Notes under the pieces: generated by a model | What the model was told of the DNA's origin: nothing | The model's database searches: none | What the model saw: only the letters and a program-made list of their open reading frames with translations | Shown here: one piece after another, positions 18,763 through 23,403 of the stretch | Position numbering within the stretch: position 1 is the first letter of the stretch | Layout: the number at the start of each line of letters is the position of its first letter | Position numbers and translations under genes: made by a program | Origin: a virus | Strand: one strand, 5' to 3' | DNA length: 23,403 bases | IMG/VR virus record: IMGVR_UViG_3300028802_000057 | Span: 1-23,403 of that record

Positions 18763-20203
18763 GCCCGAGCCGACACCGAAGCCAGCGCCGGGACCAGCGC
18801 CAAAACCAGCGCCGCCCGAGCCACCCAAGGACGTACTCTTCGACGATGCGCAATTGGCGGAAGACCCGCCCGGCAGGCCGACCAAGAGCGCTGAGCTGCG
18901 ACGGCTCGAACGGCGGCGGCTCAAGCACGACAAGTTCGTAACGCCGAAGGGCGAGAGGCCACCGAAGGTCGAGCGCGAGCCAGCGCCGCCGAAGCCGAAG
19001 CCCGAGCCGGTGCCGGAGGGGGAGCCGGAGGGAGAGCCGGACGGCCACATCACCAGGATGCACGTGTTCGGCAAGCATCACGAGGACACGCAGGATGTCT
19101 ATTACCACGAGTCCGAATTCTACGGCATGTTCAACTTCAGGGACACGATCCTGCAGCAGCTCGAACGCTACTTCGTCTACCTCGCGCGCATGAAGAAGTA
19201 CGACAGCGACTCGTATGGTTTCTATCGGCAGTACGGAGCGCAGCTCCTGCCCTACGTCAACGTGGGCGCACACGACCGCCACCTCAACGACGACAAGCCT
19301 GATGAGTGGAAGCCGTTCCTGGCGGAGTGGTTTCACCTGAACCGGCCATCGTTCGGTTGCTACGCTTACGGCACCGATCCGGAGACGGAGAAGTATGAGC
19401 TGACGGCGAAGGGTAAGACGAACAAGGCGACGCTGTGGGTGCCGAAGTTCATGTACTTCACCAAGCTGGACAAGCCTTCGCCCAACCTACAGATGATGAA
19501 GGGCGGCGACATCTACACCATGACGGTCTGGTGGGACCGGCCACACGACCCCAAGTACAAGCGCAAGTACGGTACGCCGCAGGAGTTTGGCATCTTCGTC
19601 AGCGACGACGGCCAGCGGATCGTGGCGCTGCGTTCGCTGCGGACCAACATGCGTCCGATCAAGGCCAAGCGCGGAGCGTATCGCGGCTATACGGTCCACA
19701 TCCCGCAGCGTGGCTGGCAATACCCGAGCGAGTTCGAGAGCTGGGCGAAGGACAACGGCGAGGACGCGCAGGCGTTTCTGACACGGCTGTTTCTGTCATC
19801 GGTGCAGCGGCACGCCAACGCGCAGCGTGGCATGGTGCGGATCGCGGTTCACAAGGACGACATGACCGCCGTGTTCTCAGTCAACCACGAGAAGATGGGA
19901 TACTTCTTTCAGGATCGCGACATCCACATTGGCGAGACGGGCGCGCGCAAAAAGATATTCCACATGGTGCGAGCGCACACCCGCAAGGATGGGGCCGAGG
20001 TGCCGCTGCACTTCCGTGGCGAGCGCGAGTTCACGTGGGCCGACTACGACGTGAAGATCACCGTTCCAGGCTACGACCATACCAACTTCGATGAACTCGA
20101 TGTCGGCATCATCGACGAGCATTGGATGGACGAGAAGGAGTCGTACCTAAACCAGGAAGAGGTCGGCAAGATATTCGCCGAGAAAATAAACCGGGTTCAC
20201 TAA
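18698..20203 (+). CDS. Large hypothetical protein with proline-rich linker
   Basis: A 501-residue protein. Residues 1-20 form a basic amphipathic helix (MRIVEWLRQKMLAVVARFKK). Residues about 21-115 are rich in P, K and E (repeated PKPxP, PEPPK and EPEGEPEG), a probably extended linker. Residues 120-500 are a folded region with many aromatic and histidine residues (HVFGKHHEDTQDVYYHESEFYGMFNF, WVPKFMYFTKL, MVRIAVHKDDMTAVFSVNHEK) but no ATPase, polymerase or protease motif that I recognise. ATG 18698 has CAGGAGC upstream. Its stop codon overlaps that of the convergent RuvC-like gene. It could belong to replication or virion assembly; I cannot decide. Confidence 0.65.
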   Translation: MRIVEWLRQKMLAVVARFKKPKPEPTPKPAPGPAPKPAPPEPPKDVLFDDAQLAEDPPGRPTKSAELRRLERRRLKHDKFVTPKGERPPKVEREPAPPKPKPEPVPEGEPEGEPDGHITRMHVFGKHHEDTQDVYYHESEFYGMFNFRDTILQQLERYFVYLARMKKYDSDSYGFYRQYGAQLLPYVNVGAHDRHLNDDKPDEWKPFLAEWFHLNRPSFGCYAYGTDPETEKYELTAKGKTNKATLWVPKFMYFTKLDKPSPNLQMMKGGDIYTMTVWWDRPHDPKYKRKYGTPQEFGIFVSDDGQRIVALRSLRTNMRPIKAKRGAYRGYTVHIPQRGWQYPSEFESWAKDNGEDAQAFLTRLFLSSVQRHANAQRGMVRIAVHKDDMTAVFSVNHEKMGYFFQDRDIHIGETGARKKIFHMVRAHTRKDGAEVPLHFRGEREFTWADYDVKITVPGYDHTNFDELDVGIIDEHWMDEKESYLNQEEVGKIFAEKINRVH

Positions 20204-20739
20204 CGGCGAAACAGCGGCGTCGAGTACGCAGCCAGCTTCGGGTTGAGCCACGCGCATTGGAAGTCCCACAACGCGCAGGCGTCGGCCTCGTCGAAGTCCG
20301 CAACCTCCCAGCCCAGCATGCGACACTGATCGAATGTCTTCTGCTTGGCCATCGCGCTCTTCATGTTCTGGCCGATGAAGTGAACGCGGACCGCAGCGAC
20401 GCGTGCCTCGTGCAGCTCGGCCTTGCCGTGGCACCATTCCTCAAGATGCTCAGCGAGGCCCATCAGCAGCTTGATGGTGTCGATGTTGGTCTTGCCTGCC
20501 ATGATCGACGGCACCGCTGGACTCTCGTAGACGATCACGTCGGGTATCGCGTTGTCGTCGTCGATACGACCGCCCCACTTCTGATCGAGCCAGTTGCGGA
20601 AGTTGCGGTAGACCAGGGCGCGCGGTGACCCCGGCTTGGCGAAGCGCAGATGCCCGAACTGTGGGATCGAACCGGGTGCGCCATAGGCGTACCCGGTTGT
20701 CGTCGCCAAGTCGAGCGCGAGGACCCGCCCCTCAAACAT
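20200..20739 (-). CDS. RuvC-like Holliday junction resolvase / RNase H-fold nuclease
   Basis: A 179-residue nuclease-fold protein. Acidic positions fit RuvC: D10 in VLALDLATTTGYAYG, E72 in VIVYESP, and D150/D153 in ADFDEADACALWDF. Length matches phage RuvC-like resolvases, which cut branched DNA during replication, recombination or before packaging. ATG 20739 was chosen because it places the first aspartate near the N-terminus and overlaps the previous stop by eight bases; a longer version from 20793 would overlap the 55-residue gene. Last gene of its minus block. Confidence 0.85.
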   Translation of the reverse strand: MFEGRVLALDLATTTGYAYGAPGSIPQFGHLRFAKPGSPRALVYRNFRNWLDQKWGGRIDDDNAIPDVIVYESPAVPSIMAGKTNIDTIKLLMGLAEHLEEWCHGKAELHEARVAAVRVHFIGQNMKSAMAKQKTFDQCRMLGWEVADFDEADACALWDFQCAWLNPKLAAYSTPLFRR

Positions 20740-20899
20740 TGGATCGCCGTTTCCGGCGCTTCCTCCGCCGCATGAAGTCGGCGAGCGGCGCATTGGCCGC
20801 GTCCAGCTCCCGCTGTCGGCGGGTTTCGACCTGCCTGGAGATGGCCCGAAGAATGGACAGCAACACGATCCGCTCTTCGTCGTCGATCCGCTTGCTCAC
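20732..20899 (-). CDS. Small, very basic protein
   Basis: A 55-residue protein that I read from GTG 20899, which forms a GTGA overlap with the preceding stop. The N-terminal part is helical and acidic-basic (SKRIDDEERIVLLSILRAISRQVETRRQRELDAANAPLADF), the end a run of arginine and lysine (MRRRKRRKRRSN). It may bind DNA or RNA. No family is recognised, and its size makes the call moderate. Confidence 0.6.
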   Translation of the reverse strand: MSKRIDDEERIVLLSILRAISRQVETRRQRELDAANAPLADFMRRRKRRKRRSNV

Positions 20900-21024
20900 C
20901 TGCTTCGCGTACTGCGTTTGGTCTTCTTCACGCTGCGCTTGGCAGGCTGCCGCTTGGTCGTTGCGCGCGCCTCACGCATCTCCCGAAGCTGCTGCTCGCG
21001 CGGTCCCACTTTCTTTACTGCCAT
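20896..21024 (-). CDS. Tiny lysine/arginine-rich protein
   Basis: A 42-residue, highly basic protein (AVKKVGPREQQLREMREARATTKRQPAKRSVKKTKR). ATG 21024 has AGAGGAGAC upstream at a good distance, so it is a real translation start although it overlaps the previous gene by 53 bases. Composition suits nucleic acid binding or charge neutralisation. No family can be given. Confidence 0.6.
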   Translation of the reverse strand: MAVKKVGPREQQLREMREARATTKRQPAKRSVKKTKRSTRSR

Positions 21025-21700
21025 TCGAGTCTCCTCTGGTTGGTAGGTGTTGACTGCAAAACCAAGTGCCGAATTCACCATTGCGGATGGTGCCTGTAGA
21101 AAAGCTCTGTGTCGCGTACGCCCCGCACTGACAGTAGGCAACAAAGCGGCCCTGCTCGTCGAAGCCAACGAAGCCAGCCAGACCCTTGCGCGTGTTCTGT
21201 CGTCTGCGAAGCTCTTCTCTTAATTCCTGCGGTGGCTTCATGATCGGATCGTTGCGCGGGATGAAGTAGCCGCCGCCATCGGTCCGCTTCACCTCCCAGT
21301 ATTTCTGTTGCTTGCCCTCGTAGCCCCAGCACCATGCGACGATCTGGTACTGTGGATGTGCCGAAACATCGACAAGCAGGTACGCCCAGTGATCGGGCTT
21401 CTTCGGCGAGATCAAGAGTCGGCGATACGAATCCGCGACGCCCTTTACGTCGATAAAATCATCCAGGTCAGCATCGGTGTGGCGCAATGAAAACGCGTTC
21501 CATGTCACGGGGTTCATGTAGAGTTTCCCGGCGGCCTCGGCTCTGGCACCGAGTATGTCCAGCGGCAGCGCGCGCTCATCATCCTCCGGAGCGCCCTGCG
21601 ACCCGCGCCAGTTGTTATCCGCCGCATTCCGTCTGCGCTTCACCGCGATCTTGTCGGCGAAGTCGATGTGCAGCGCCTCCATCGTAACCCACTCGATCAT
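20972..21700 (-). CDS. Putative PD-(D/E)XK nuclease-like phage protein
   Basis: A 242-residue protein from ATG 21700, in an ATGA overlap with the methyltransferase stop. The segment ILGARAEAAGKLYMNPVTWNAF, then DADLDDFIDVKGV and a strand LISPKKPDHWAYLLVDV, fits an E-x(n)-D-x(n)-DxK arrangement of the PD-(D/E)XK fold. The segment PQYQIVAWCWGYEGKQ follows as in related phage proteins. C-terminal cysteines (YCQCG, WFCSQH) may bind zinc. Catalysis is inferred from spacing only, so the call is moderate. The last residues overlap the 42-residue gene. Confidence 0.55.
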   Translation of the reverse strand: MIEWVTMEALHIDFADKIAVKRRRNAADNNWRGSQGAPEDDERALPLDILGARAEAAGKLYMNPVTWNAFSLRHTDADLDDFIDVKGVADSYRRLLISPKKPDHWAYLLVDVSAHPQYQIVAWCWGYEGKQQKYWEVKRTDGGGYFIPRNDPIMKPPQELREELRRRQNTRKGLAGFVGFDEQGRFVAYCQCGAYATQSFSTGTIRNGEFGTWFCSQHLPTRGDSNGSKESGTARAAASGDA

Positions 21701-22284
21701 GCTTCGTTGCCCCACCTACTCCAGCCCTTGCGCGGCCTGCGCGCATTGAGTTCGATCTTCGGCAGGCTTGGGTAGTACTCCTCGATGATCCGGTAGAACA
21801 CGTCAGGCTTGACGCTGTGCCTGCCGCGCACAGCTTCGATCACCGACGACCACTGCGTCCCTGGTGCCGGTGCCGGAATTCTGCCGCGCGTGCCGACCAG
21901 GAGCAGCTCGTGCTTGTTACGAAACCAGTAGCCGGTGCCATTGCGGTCCTTCGCCCAGACCATGTGCGACTTGTACTTGAAGCCCCACGCGTCCATGACC
22001 TCAAGCGCCTGCGGCAGCATCGGCTGCGTCGCCCACAGAAACAGCGCGCAGTGCTTCGCCGCGATGCTTTCCACGGACCGCGCCTTGATCACCGCCAGCA
22101 ACGATGTCGGGTAGTGATTGTCGGCGGCTCGGTCCATGCCGGTCTTGCGCGAGTACGGCTCGAACCGCCATTCGGGATCGGCCAGGATCACGCCGTACTT
22201 CTTGCGCGGCAGCGCTCTGATCTTCTTGGCCAGCGTGCGCTCACGAAGTCGGCGCAGCCGCTGCTTGTCGAGAGCTGAGTCCAT
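21697..22284 (-). CDS. MT-A70 family DNA N6-adenine methyltransferase with DPEW motif
   Basis: A 195-residue protein of the MT-A70 fold, which transfers a methyl group from SAM to adenine N6. Typical phrases are present: GVILADPEWRFEPYS, AADNHYPTS, CALFLWATQPMLPQALEVMDAWGFKYKSHMVWAKD, GTGYWFRNKHELLLVGTRG and a C-terminal R-W-G-N-E-A. The catalytic motif reads DPEW (36-39) where the family has DPPW. Start ATG 22284 is used; TTG 22320, directly after the previous stop, would add 12 residues and cannot be excluded. It lies just downstream of a GcrA-like regulator. Confidence 0.88.
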   Translation of the reverse strand: MDSALDKQRLRRLRERTLAKKIRALPRKKYGVILADPEWRFEPYSRKTGMDRAADNHYPTSLLAVIKARSVESIAAKHCALFLWATQPMLPQALEVMDAWGFKYKSHMVWAKDRNGTGYWFRNKHELLLVGTRGRIPAPAPGTQWSSVIEAVRGRHSVKPDVFYRIIEEYYPSLPKIELNARRPRKGWSRWGNEA

Positions 22285-22320
22285 CCCAGAATCTATACAA
22301 GCGAAGTTTGCGATGCGCAA

Positions 22321-22818
22321 TCAGCCGCTCGATCTCTTGGGGATGGTTGTGTGGTAGAGCCGGAAGTGCGTCGGACAATAGACGCTGTCAGCGCCATGGT
22401 AGTCGAGGCCGCAGGGCCTGCCGCAGCACAGCGGCAGCTTGGTGTGCGGGTCGCGCTTGTCCAGAATCGCCTTGCACCGGCCCTTCGATAGATCGAGATA
22501 GTTCACACCGGCATTCAGAAACAGCATTTCGAGTTCGGCTGCGCTGACCTCGCGGCGTGGCGGCGGCGGCCTTGCTGCAGCTGGTCGCTGCTTCGGCGGT
22601 TCAGTCGGCATCTTCCAGGTTCGCTGTGTCGGCTTCGCGGTCTTGCGGCTGAAGCGGCCTTCACCGAGCCGGTTCTTACGGCCAGCGATGGCGTTGCGCG
22701 TGACCTCGTAGCCCGCCGCGCGCATTCCCTGCATGACGTAGTTAAACGATCCGCCCTCATCCCAGAGCTGGATCAATAACGCGTCCGCTTCATCGGTCCA
22801 CCGGATAAGCTCCACCAT
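22321..22818 (-). CDS. GcrA-like cell cycle regulator
   Basis: A 165-residue protein with both ends of the GcrA family, which in alphaproteobacteria activates promoters carrying methylated GANTC sites. The N-terminus (IRWTDEADALLIQLWDEGGSFNYV, then VTRNAIAGRKNRLG, residues about 5-52) matches the GcrA DNA-binding region. The C-terminus has a C-x-x-I-L-D segment, LCCGRPCG and SVYCPTHFRLYH, as in the GcrA polymerase-binding end. The middle is proline/arginine-rich. ATG 22818 overlaps the upstream gene. A phage copy could redirect host sigma70 polymerase; this is inference. Confidence 0.75.
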   Translation of the reverse strand: MVELIRWTDEADALLIQLWDEGGSFNYVMQGMRAAGYEVTRNAIAGRKNRLGEGRFSRKTAKPTQRTWKMPTEPPKQRPAAARPPPPRREVSAAELEMLFLNAGVNYLDLSKGRCKAILDKRDPHTKLPLCCGRPCGLDYHGADSVYCPTHFRLYHTTIPKRSSG

Positions 22819-23093
22819 CAGCGCCTGCGTCGGCTGAACACGTCGGGTCGTATCTGCTCGGGGGTCATGTCGAGCATCTCTGCCACCTCAAGCACATGGT
22901 GGGCCGGGACTCGATTCCACGCCGATACGTTCTGGTGAGTGACGCCGAGGTGCTTGGCGATCTCGGTGGCGAACCCGTCCTTGGCGAAGATCGATCTCAT
23001 GATCGCGTCGCGCCGGTCGTTGCGATTCGCGCTCCGGGTATCACCTCGCTTACGTTTACGTGGCACGAAGCTGTGGGCTGATGGCATGCTCAT
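22818..23093 (-). CDS. Cro/YdaS-like HTH regulator
   Basis: A 91-residue protein. After a basic N-terminus (RKRKRGDTRSANRNDRRD), residues about 40-85 form a helix-turn-helix of the YdaS/Cro sort: FATEIAKHLGVTHQNVSAWNRVPAHHVLEVAEMLDMTPEQIRPDVF. Such small proteins act as repressors or antitoxin-like factors. It is the first gene of the minus block and faces the plus-strand nuclease gene across a 187-base divergent region that holds an inverted repeat, a likely operator site. A GAGG sequence lies some 13 bases before ATG 23093. Confidence 0.8.
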   Translation of the reverse strand: MSMPSAHSFVPRKRKRGDTRSANRNDRRDAIMRSIFAKDGFATEIAKHLGVTHQNVSAWNRVPAHHVLEVAEMLDMTPEQIRPDVFSRRRR

Positions 23094-23141
23094 TTGCTTG
23101 TCTTTTCCTCTGGGTTTTTAACGCAACCATACAATAAGACG

Positions 23142-23170
23142 TTGCAAAGGTGATATCCAGGTCCTAGGTT
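23142..23170 (+). promoter_or_regulatory. Promoter with overlapping operator-like inverted repeat
   Basis: TTGCAA (23142-23147), a 17-base spacer and TAGGTT (23165-23170) form a sigma70-like promoter toward the nuclease gene. Its -10 box lies in an inverted repeat, GGTCC-TAGGTT-GGACC (23160-23175), that could bind a repressor such as the adjacent Cro/YdaS-like protein. Confidence 0.45.
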
Positions 23171-23221
23171 GGACCGGGTCACGCCGCGTCTGACAAGTAC
23201 GCTTTTGGATAGGTTTGATCA

Positions 23222-23260
23222 CGGGGCGGACAGACTGGTCGGTGGGTCCTGTCCGCCCCG
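23222..23260 (+). promoter_or_regulatory. 12-pair hairpin in the 5' leader
   Basis: CGGGGCGGACAG (23222-23233) and CTGTCCGCCCCG (23249-23260) are perfect complements with a 15-base loop. The AAAGGAGC site of the next gene follows a few bases later. This is the same hairpin-plus-ribosome-binding-site layout found in the 3490-12896 operon. Confidence 0.65.
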
Positions 23261-23280
23261 ACTTCAAAGGAGCAAAGGTT

Positions 23281-23403
23281 ATGAAGATAAACAAGTGGGA
23301 CGGCAAGCCGATCTCAAAACCGGGCTGGTACTCTGATGTGCCAATCGAGAAGTACCACGGTCCGAACATGTGCGCTGGCCCGGCGGTCAGCTCATCGAAC
23401 TTG
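23281..23403 (+). CDS. RecE/exonuclease VIII-like nuclease, N-terminus only
   Basis: The first 41 residues of a gene cut by the window edge, from ATG 23281 with AAAGGAGC upstream. The start (WDGKPISKPGWYSDVPIEKYH, then CAGPAVSSSNL) closely follows the beginning of the phage PD-(D/E)XK nucleases of the exonuclease VIII/DUF3799 group, where a Y-H … S-S-S-x-L phrase is typical. The catalytic residues are outside the window, so the call rests on this N-terminal match. Such enzymes resect DNA for annealing-type recombination. Confidence 0.55.
   Translation, partial: MKINKWDGKPISKPGWYSDVPIEKYHGPNMCAGPAVSSSNL

Follow-up and report, generated by a model that had tools for sequence, protein, structure and literature searches.

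The window analysed in this study, that is, the whole stretch of DNA, is a virus record from IMG/VR, 23,403 bases long (GC 61%), in which a gene for a GcrA-like protein is packed between a gene for a YdaS/Cro-like regulator and a gene for an MT-A70-type adenine methyltransferase. Comparison of eleven distinct phage lineages carrying the same GcrA subfamily revealed that the Cro-like repressor is the fixed partner of GcrA and that the methyltransferase is optional, because the YdaS-like gene is present in all eleven lineages and MT-A70 is missing in four. On balance, we favour the view that this run of genes would supply an early σ70 cofactor under a Cro-like repressor, accompanied by an optional, co-transcribed m6A methyltransferase.

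The gene run and its products

The features of the locus are as follows:

23127..23144 (−): candidate promoter/operator element CAAYRWCTYATTGTATGG, located 5' of the YdaS-like gene
22818..23093 (−): YdaS/Cro-like HTH regulator, 91 aa, PF15943; opens the putative operon
22321..22818 (−): GcrA-like protein, 165 aa, ATG start, PF07750; also recovered by a six-frame search
21697..22284 (−): MT-A70-type adenine methyltransferase, short form, PF05063; 195 aa from the likely start, ATG 22284
20972..21715 (−): ORF of unknown function, phrog_18407; 3' neighbour of the MT-A70 gene
20896..21024 (−): small conserved 'GPREQQLREMREAR' protein, found in most syntenic relatives
20200..20793 (−): RuvC-like Holliday junction resolvase (phrog_159, E 2.5e-7), in the same gene run

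An earlier, sequence-only reading of this DNA had proposed a GcrA-like gene followed by an adenine methyltransferase gene in one operon, with a Cro/YdaS-like regulator in front, and this arrangement was borne out, as all three products score above the cut-offs of their respective families. The YdaS-like protein belongs to PF15943 (E 4.4e-8, 33.3 bits, cut-off 30) and its gene overlaps that of the GcrA-like protein by one base (TGATG, 22820-22816), while the gap between the GcrA-like and MT-A70 genes amounts to 0 nt or 36 nt, depending on whether the latter starts at a TTG or an ATG codon. Such touching and overlapping stops and starts are as expected for, and consistent with, a single operon. 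The 3' end of the MT-A70 gene overlaps the ORF at 20972-21715 by 19 nt, and the small protein, whose ATG start lies within MAVKKVGPREQQ, overlaps the 3' end of that ORF in another frame; homologues of the ORF occur close to the operon in three relatives (L104, L107 and L126). The order YdaS, GcrA, MT-A70, small protein and RuvC-like resolvase, the last being kept downstream in relatives also, is conserved in phages whose GcrA is approximately 41–47% identical to that of the window, and since gene order persists at so low an identity the three-gene arrangement exceeds chance. A nucleotide search of the entire window against phages returned no matches. The host of the window phage is probably an alphaproteobacterium. 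Elsewhere in the window, positions 2079-2546 (−) encode a NusG/RfaH-like antiterminator (NCBIfam RfaH, E 2e-22; phrog_6386).

The GcrA-like protein is a member of PF07750 (E 9e-9, 36.3 bits, cut-off 26.9), its residues 6-155 aligning with positions 2-144 of the 155 in the profile. Modelled with AlphaFold2 on the basis of 22 homologues, at a mean pLDDT of 87 that drops in the linker and tail, the protein comprises a three-helix N-terminal domain of DNA-binding type (residues ~7-52), a lower-confidence linker and a C-terminal domain in which C115, C132, C148 and H151 are conserved within the subfamily; R41, I44, G46, R47 and R50 of the recognition helix are invariant across it. The top Foldseek match of the model was Caulobacter crescentus GcrA (7ye1_G), with the DNA-binding domain matching 5yiu (TMt 0.73, rmsd 1.9) and the sigma-interacting domain (SID) matching 5yix_B (TMt 0.68). 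The E-values are weak (best 0.012) because the domains are small, and a sequence search of solved structures recovered GcrA chains as the sole relatives. Among these matches are GcrA chains of RNA polymerase complexes (7ye1 and 7ye2) and a SID-sigma complex (5yix). With both domains of the 22321-22818 product thus matched to GcrA, the objection that it might lack the GcrA fold, on which the earlier proposal could have foundered, falls away.

The NCBIfam equivalog for GcrA (NF050816) scored 30.3 bits against a cut-off of 280, with the N-terminal half alone matched, and the canonical C-terminal CKWP is replaced by CKAI in the window protein and in 8/8 aligned subfamily members. On account of this score and this replacement, the protein is best classed as a member of the GcrA family and not as an orthologue of the cellular protein. 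Since CKAI stands in for CKWP throughout the subfamily, binding to σ70 may have been lost or retuned. Neither a comparison of the protein with named phage records nor a scan of viral contigs with the single sequence gave any match, and the subfamily relatives were recovered from viral contigs with an alignment as query. When genomes were scanned with the subfamily, the sole hit was a weak one to the N-terminal part, located in an Acetobacteraceae MAG in a neighbourhood devoid of the other operon genes.

Concerning the methyltransferase, its ORF extends over 21697-22320 from a TTG at 22320 (207 aa), directly after the GcrA stop. As the conserved part begins at approximately residue 18 of this ORF and an internal ATG, at 22284, lies close to where the nearest relatives start, the gene is likely to occupy 21697-22284 and to encode 195 aa. 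The protein belongs to PF05063 (E 5.5e-20, 72.4 bits, cut-off 23.9), which alone passed its cut-off, PF01555 (N6_N4_Mtase, the CcrM domain) giving no match above threshold, and its model (pLDDT 88) has METTL3 (E 4e-14) and MTA1 as top Foldseek matches, both with E about 1e-13, which substantiates the earlier statement that this enzyme is not CcrM. Its catalytic motif reads DPEW instead of DPPW and, being invariant in 81/81 aligned sequences, would represent a conserved variant. The window enzyme is of short form, whereas in most relatives the N-terminus is extended by ~100 residues or more, and the N-terminal part of some long relatives gives weak HTH matches (HTH_23). A stand-alone homologue of this extension, with the methyltransferase domain absent, was observed at L133:1952-2656. 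In Mesorhizobium phage vB_MloP_Lo5R7ANS (L216:3319-4588), an MT-A70 gene directly follows a gene annotated as a BglII-like restriction endonuclease, the two constituting a possible restriction-modification pair. A read-through fusion of GcrA and MT-A70, which in the window share a frame and are separated by one TGA, was considered and dismissed as a conserved feature, the frame being different in L003.

In the arrangement that we favour, the first gene of the operon would encode a Cro/YdaS-like repressor. By analogy with Caulobacter GcrA, the N-terminal helix-turn-helix of the GcrA-like protein would bind DNA and its C-terminal domain would grip domain 2 of the host σ70, by which means the protein would redirect the host RNA polymerase early in infection, while the MT-A70 N6-adenine methyltransferase would be co-expressed as an optional part of the operon. 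GcrA has been reviewed as a σ2-binding activator (PMC7403470).

Fixed and optional partners of the phage GcrA

The eleven lineages of the subfamily are the window, L003/L004, L042, L107, L130, L126, L098-L100, L101/L104, L106, L109 and L133. In each of these, the YdaS-like gene lies immediately before, or overlaps, the GcrA gene. The Cro-like repressor thus sits where temperate phages keep cro and cII. The element CAAYRWCTYATTGTATGG has exact copies at the equivalent place in L042, L107 and L130, one per phage, and may, judging from this conservation, serve as the promoter/operator of the operon; it contains no GANTC, and a scan of 21600-23403 for consensus σ70 promoters found none.

The position of MT-A70 is far more variable. 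Its gene lies directly after GcrA, or one gene later, in 6/11 lineages, with ~490 nt or another gene intervening in L042, L107 and L130, and is found 3.8 kb from GcrA in L126. Four lineages (L101/L104, L106, L109 and L133) retain YdaS-GcrA and lack MT-A70, an absence that in the fragmentary L101 and L133 applies to the available stretch only. In L098, a non-orthologous DUF3102-MT-A70 enzyme with a DPAW motif occupies exactly the position of the window MT-A70. In several relatives a coiled-coil-looking gene of unknown function is located between GcrA and MT-A70 or in the place of MT-A70 (L042:3448-3909, L106:5344-5880 and L109:5344-5922). Furthermore, a protein predicted to be secreted and bearing a PEPxxWA-CTERM sorting signal, an odd cargo for a phage, is encoded just 5' of the RuvC-like gene in relatives (L042:5598-6290, L130:9243-10001, L106:6705-7625 and L109:7728-8393); the NCBIfam model of the signal scores above its cut-off in two of these four proteins and below it in the other two.

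The linkage of GcrA and MT-A70 extends beyond these lineages. In a sample of 80 related viral contigs centred on MT-A70, which includes a few near-duplicates, GcrA was detected above cut-off in 23, on the same strand in every case, and 12 GcrA genes lie within 1 kb of MT-A70 against 1.5 expected from random placement. GcrA is encoded by at least 393 viral contigs, and among 50 sampled with GcrA at the centre, MT-A70 was present in 9 and an N6_N4 methyltransferase in 11, 41 being without MT-A70; eight of the nine MT-A70 genes are situated less than 2 kb from GcrA. In unrelated phages the pairs share one strand and occur in either order, several with overlapping genes, and the enzymes involved are of at least three kinds, with short DPEW, long DPEW, DPPW and DUF3102-DPAW forms represented. 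Strict adjacency was observed in 13/36 cases versus 7.3 expected from early-region genes (P 0.02). The linkage is real and recurrent, and it is rated as modest because GcrA and MT-A70 are both early-region genes and their adjacency exceeds the expectation for that region only mildly; this excess nevertheless hints at some direct link between the two. The self-contained regulator-plus-methylation module of the sequence-only reading is therefore upheld in part: recurrent linkage and tight packing speak for it, whereas the lack of MT-A70 in four YdaS-GcrA lineages and in most GcrA-centred contigs speaks against self-containment. A dedicated regulator-plus-methylation switch is possible.

If the genes were simply neighbours, MT-A70 would serve in anti-restriction or early modification, having arrived in the early operon through modular exchange, and would be functionally unlinked to the GcrA-like protein. 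The gain, loss and replacement of MT-A70, exemplified by L098, would fit such an origin, as would the weak enrichment in adjacency, the pairing of MT-A70 elsewhere with a BglII-like endonuclease or other HTH genes, and the PADLOC assignment of the window enzyme to MTase_II (E 5.7e-49), where models of type II restriction-modification methyltransferases score best. Repeated adjacency and overlap, in either order and in unrelated phages, exceed what pure hitchhiking would produce, however, and we consider this explanation somewhat unlikely.

A different relationship would be that of a holoenzyme, in which the GcrA-like HTH protein would act as a subunit that targets the short MT-A70, substituting for the N-terminal extension fused to most relatives. 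In the MT-A70-centred sample, GcrA lies at most 1 kb upstream of 4/7 short and 5/73 long enzymes (Fisher P 0.002, uncorrected for kinship), although the sample is limited in size and its members are not phylogenetically independent, L003 and L004 being near-identical. The weak HTH_23 match in some long enzymes, the occurrence of the N-terminal part as a separate protein and the precedent of M.EcoPA8orf6770P with PNB-2 (PMC10810198) are in keeping with a subunit role. In contrast, long enzymes also adjoin GcrA, GcrA persists where MT-A70 is missing, and the two genes are set apart in L042, L107 and L130; such a holoenzyme appears very unlikely.

GANTC sites, missing palindromes and the role of methylation

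GANTC is the CcrM site of alphaproteobacteria. The window contains 44 GANTC sites against 74 expected (order-2 Markov model), and control pentamers are equally low (TCNGA 56 versus 100, CTNAG 32 versus 60). No conserved GANTC was found at the operon start or at gene junctions across the window and its relatives. In L106 and L109, which possess YdaS-GcrA without MT-A70, GANTC occurs once against 149 expected (37 kb) and once against 79 (19 kb), as counted on the contigs behind L118, L124 and L120, and these lone sites lie several kilobases off the operon. L131-L133 have zero GANTC, and L133 nonetheless carries a GcrA-family gene. Because near-GANTC-free sister phages retain YdaS-GcrA, GcrA of this subfamily has no need of GANTC on its own phage genome, and in these sister phages it cannot work through GANTC on phage DNA; it would act either on host promoters or at a site other than GANTC. 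The tie to GANTC methylation that had been suggested for this module finds no support here.

These observations also bear on the possibility that MT-A70 marks a phage or host site, GANTC or other, and that the GcrA-like protein activates the promoters so marked, in the way that GcrA uses the marks of CcrM. The same-strand linkage and proximity recorded in both samples, the diversity of order and enzyme type among the pairs, and two GANTC sites of the window, at 22277 and 22289, which flank the likely MT-A70 start, would accord with this. Set against it are the lack of GANTC conservation at the operon and junctions, the retention of GcrA by GANTC-free sister phages, the frequent absence of MT-A70 (4/11 lineages and 41/50 GcrA phages) and the shared early-region location, which accounts for much of the linkage. 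We therefore regard a marking and reading relationship as quite unlikely.

The notion that MT-A70 protects GANTC looked attractive because sister phages without MT-A70 avoid this site, and it was discarded: L101/L104 lack MT-A70 yet show no avoidance of GANTC, and the wider samples, in which low GANTC was seen at 2/80 MT-A70 loci and 4/50 GcrA loci, show no clear link.

Restriction-type palindromes are strikingly depleted in the window, with none seen of GDGCHC (60 expected), RGATCY (24), CGATCG (32), CGGCCG (22), GCCGGC (21), GGCGCC (18), CCGCGG (16), GTCGAC (14), GACGTC (10) and CTCGAG (9). Among six-mers with zero copies and an expectation above 8, 9/10 are palindromic, and the sets missing from relatives overlap that of the window but differ from it. 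Of all properties of the record, this absence of palindromes may be the most surprising. Because avoidance of RGATCY and numerous further palindromes persists, broad protective methylation by MT-A70 is unlikely, which also weighs against an anti-restriction enzyme that is no more than a neighbour of GcrA.

A bolder proposition, which we entertain with considerable doubt, is that phages have repeatedly built GcrA/MT-A70 pairs in which the GcrA-like protein reads a non-GANTC mark of its own MT-A70, or targets the short, extension-less enzyme, thereby forming an epigenetic switch of transcription that belongs to the phage and does not depend on the host CcrM. If such a pair were functional, phages would have reassembled the cell-cycle logic of alphaproteobacteria (m6A plus a σ70 cofactor) using a different enzyme, and would offer a compact two-gene system for methylation-dependent activation outside Caulobacter. 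Even if it is not, the GANTC-free sister phages represent a natural test of GcrA-family action other than via GANTC on phage DNA.

Relation to known systems

GcrA homologues of phages have been published previously, namely gp222 of phiCbK (PMC3556154), gp5 of Atu_ph08 (PMC6630229) and ORF4/5 of Brucella phage Y17 (PMC11836647), and the passages concerned propose a redirection of host gene expression; GcrA has also been published in a coral-associated phage genome. No GcrA/MT-A70 gene pair is described in the passages on phiCbK, Atu_ph08 and Y17 and, as far as these passages permit comparison, the window protein differs in that its subfamily is a divergent one whose YdaS-like partner is fixed. 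Within the literature searched, which covered few subscription papers, none joins GcrA, phage and MT-A70, and the recurrent pairing in phages appears to be undescribed there.

The nearest arrangement is that of Mesorhizobium phage vB_MseS-P1 (PP232116), where an early one-strand run, gp14-gp19, includes CII, a gene annotated as GcrA (gp15) and MT-A70 (gp19). The 106-aa gp15 falls below the cut-off and aligns with only a portion of the GcrA C-terminal region, the gp19 enzyme is of long form (383 aa), and three genes separate the two.

Regarding the methyltransferase, the short MT-A70 of an E. coli Stx phage (M.EcoPA8orf6770P) on its own displays no significant specific activity, and it complexes with PNB-2, an HTH-type protein encoded upstream (PMC10810198). 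As in the window, a prophage MT-A70 gene there lies directly 3' of a nucleic-acid-binding HTH gene, although the partner is described as a winged HTH protein and not GcrA, the reported substrate is 16S rRNA and the host is gammaproteobacterial (PMC10810198). Published work also covers GANTC-specific methyltransferases encoded by phages of Sinorhizobium and Paracoccus (PMC5537653). Like the window enzyme, these are m6A methyltransferases that alphaproteobacterial phages carry in their replication region, but they are described there by NPPY/F/W motifs, in contrast to the MT-A70 enzyme with DPEW.

With GcrA of Caulobacter crescentus (PF07750; 5yiu, 5yix and 7ye1), the window protein shares the two-domain layout, the DNA-binding fold, the recognition helix and the C-terminal C..CG..C..H pattern. 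It differs in being phage-encoded, in reaching 36 bits to the family, in carrying CKAI for CKWP and in a short insertion in its helix-turn-helix; and whereas Caulobacter GcrA works with CcrM, the enzyme encoded next to the phage protein is an MT-A70.
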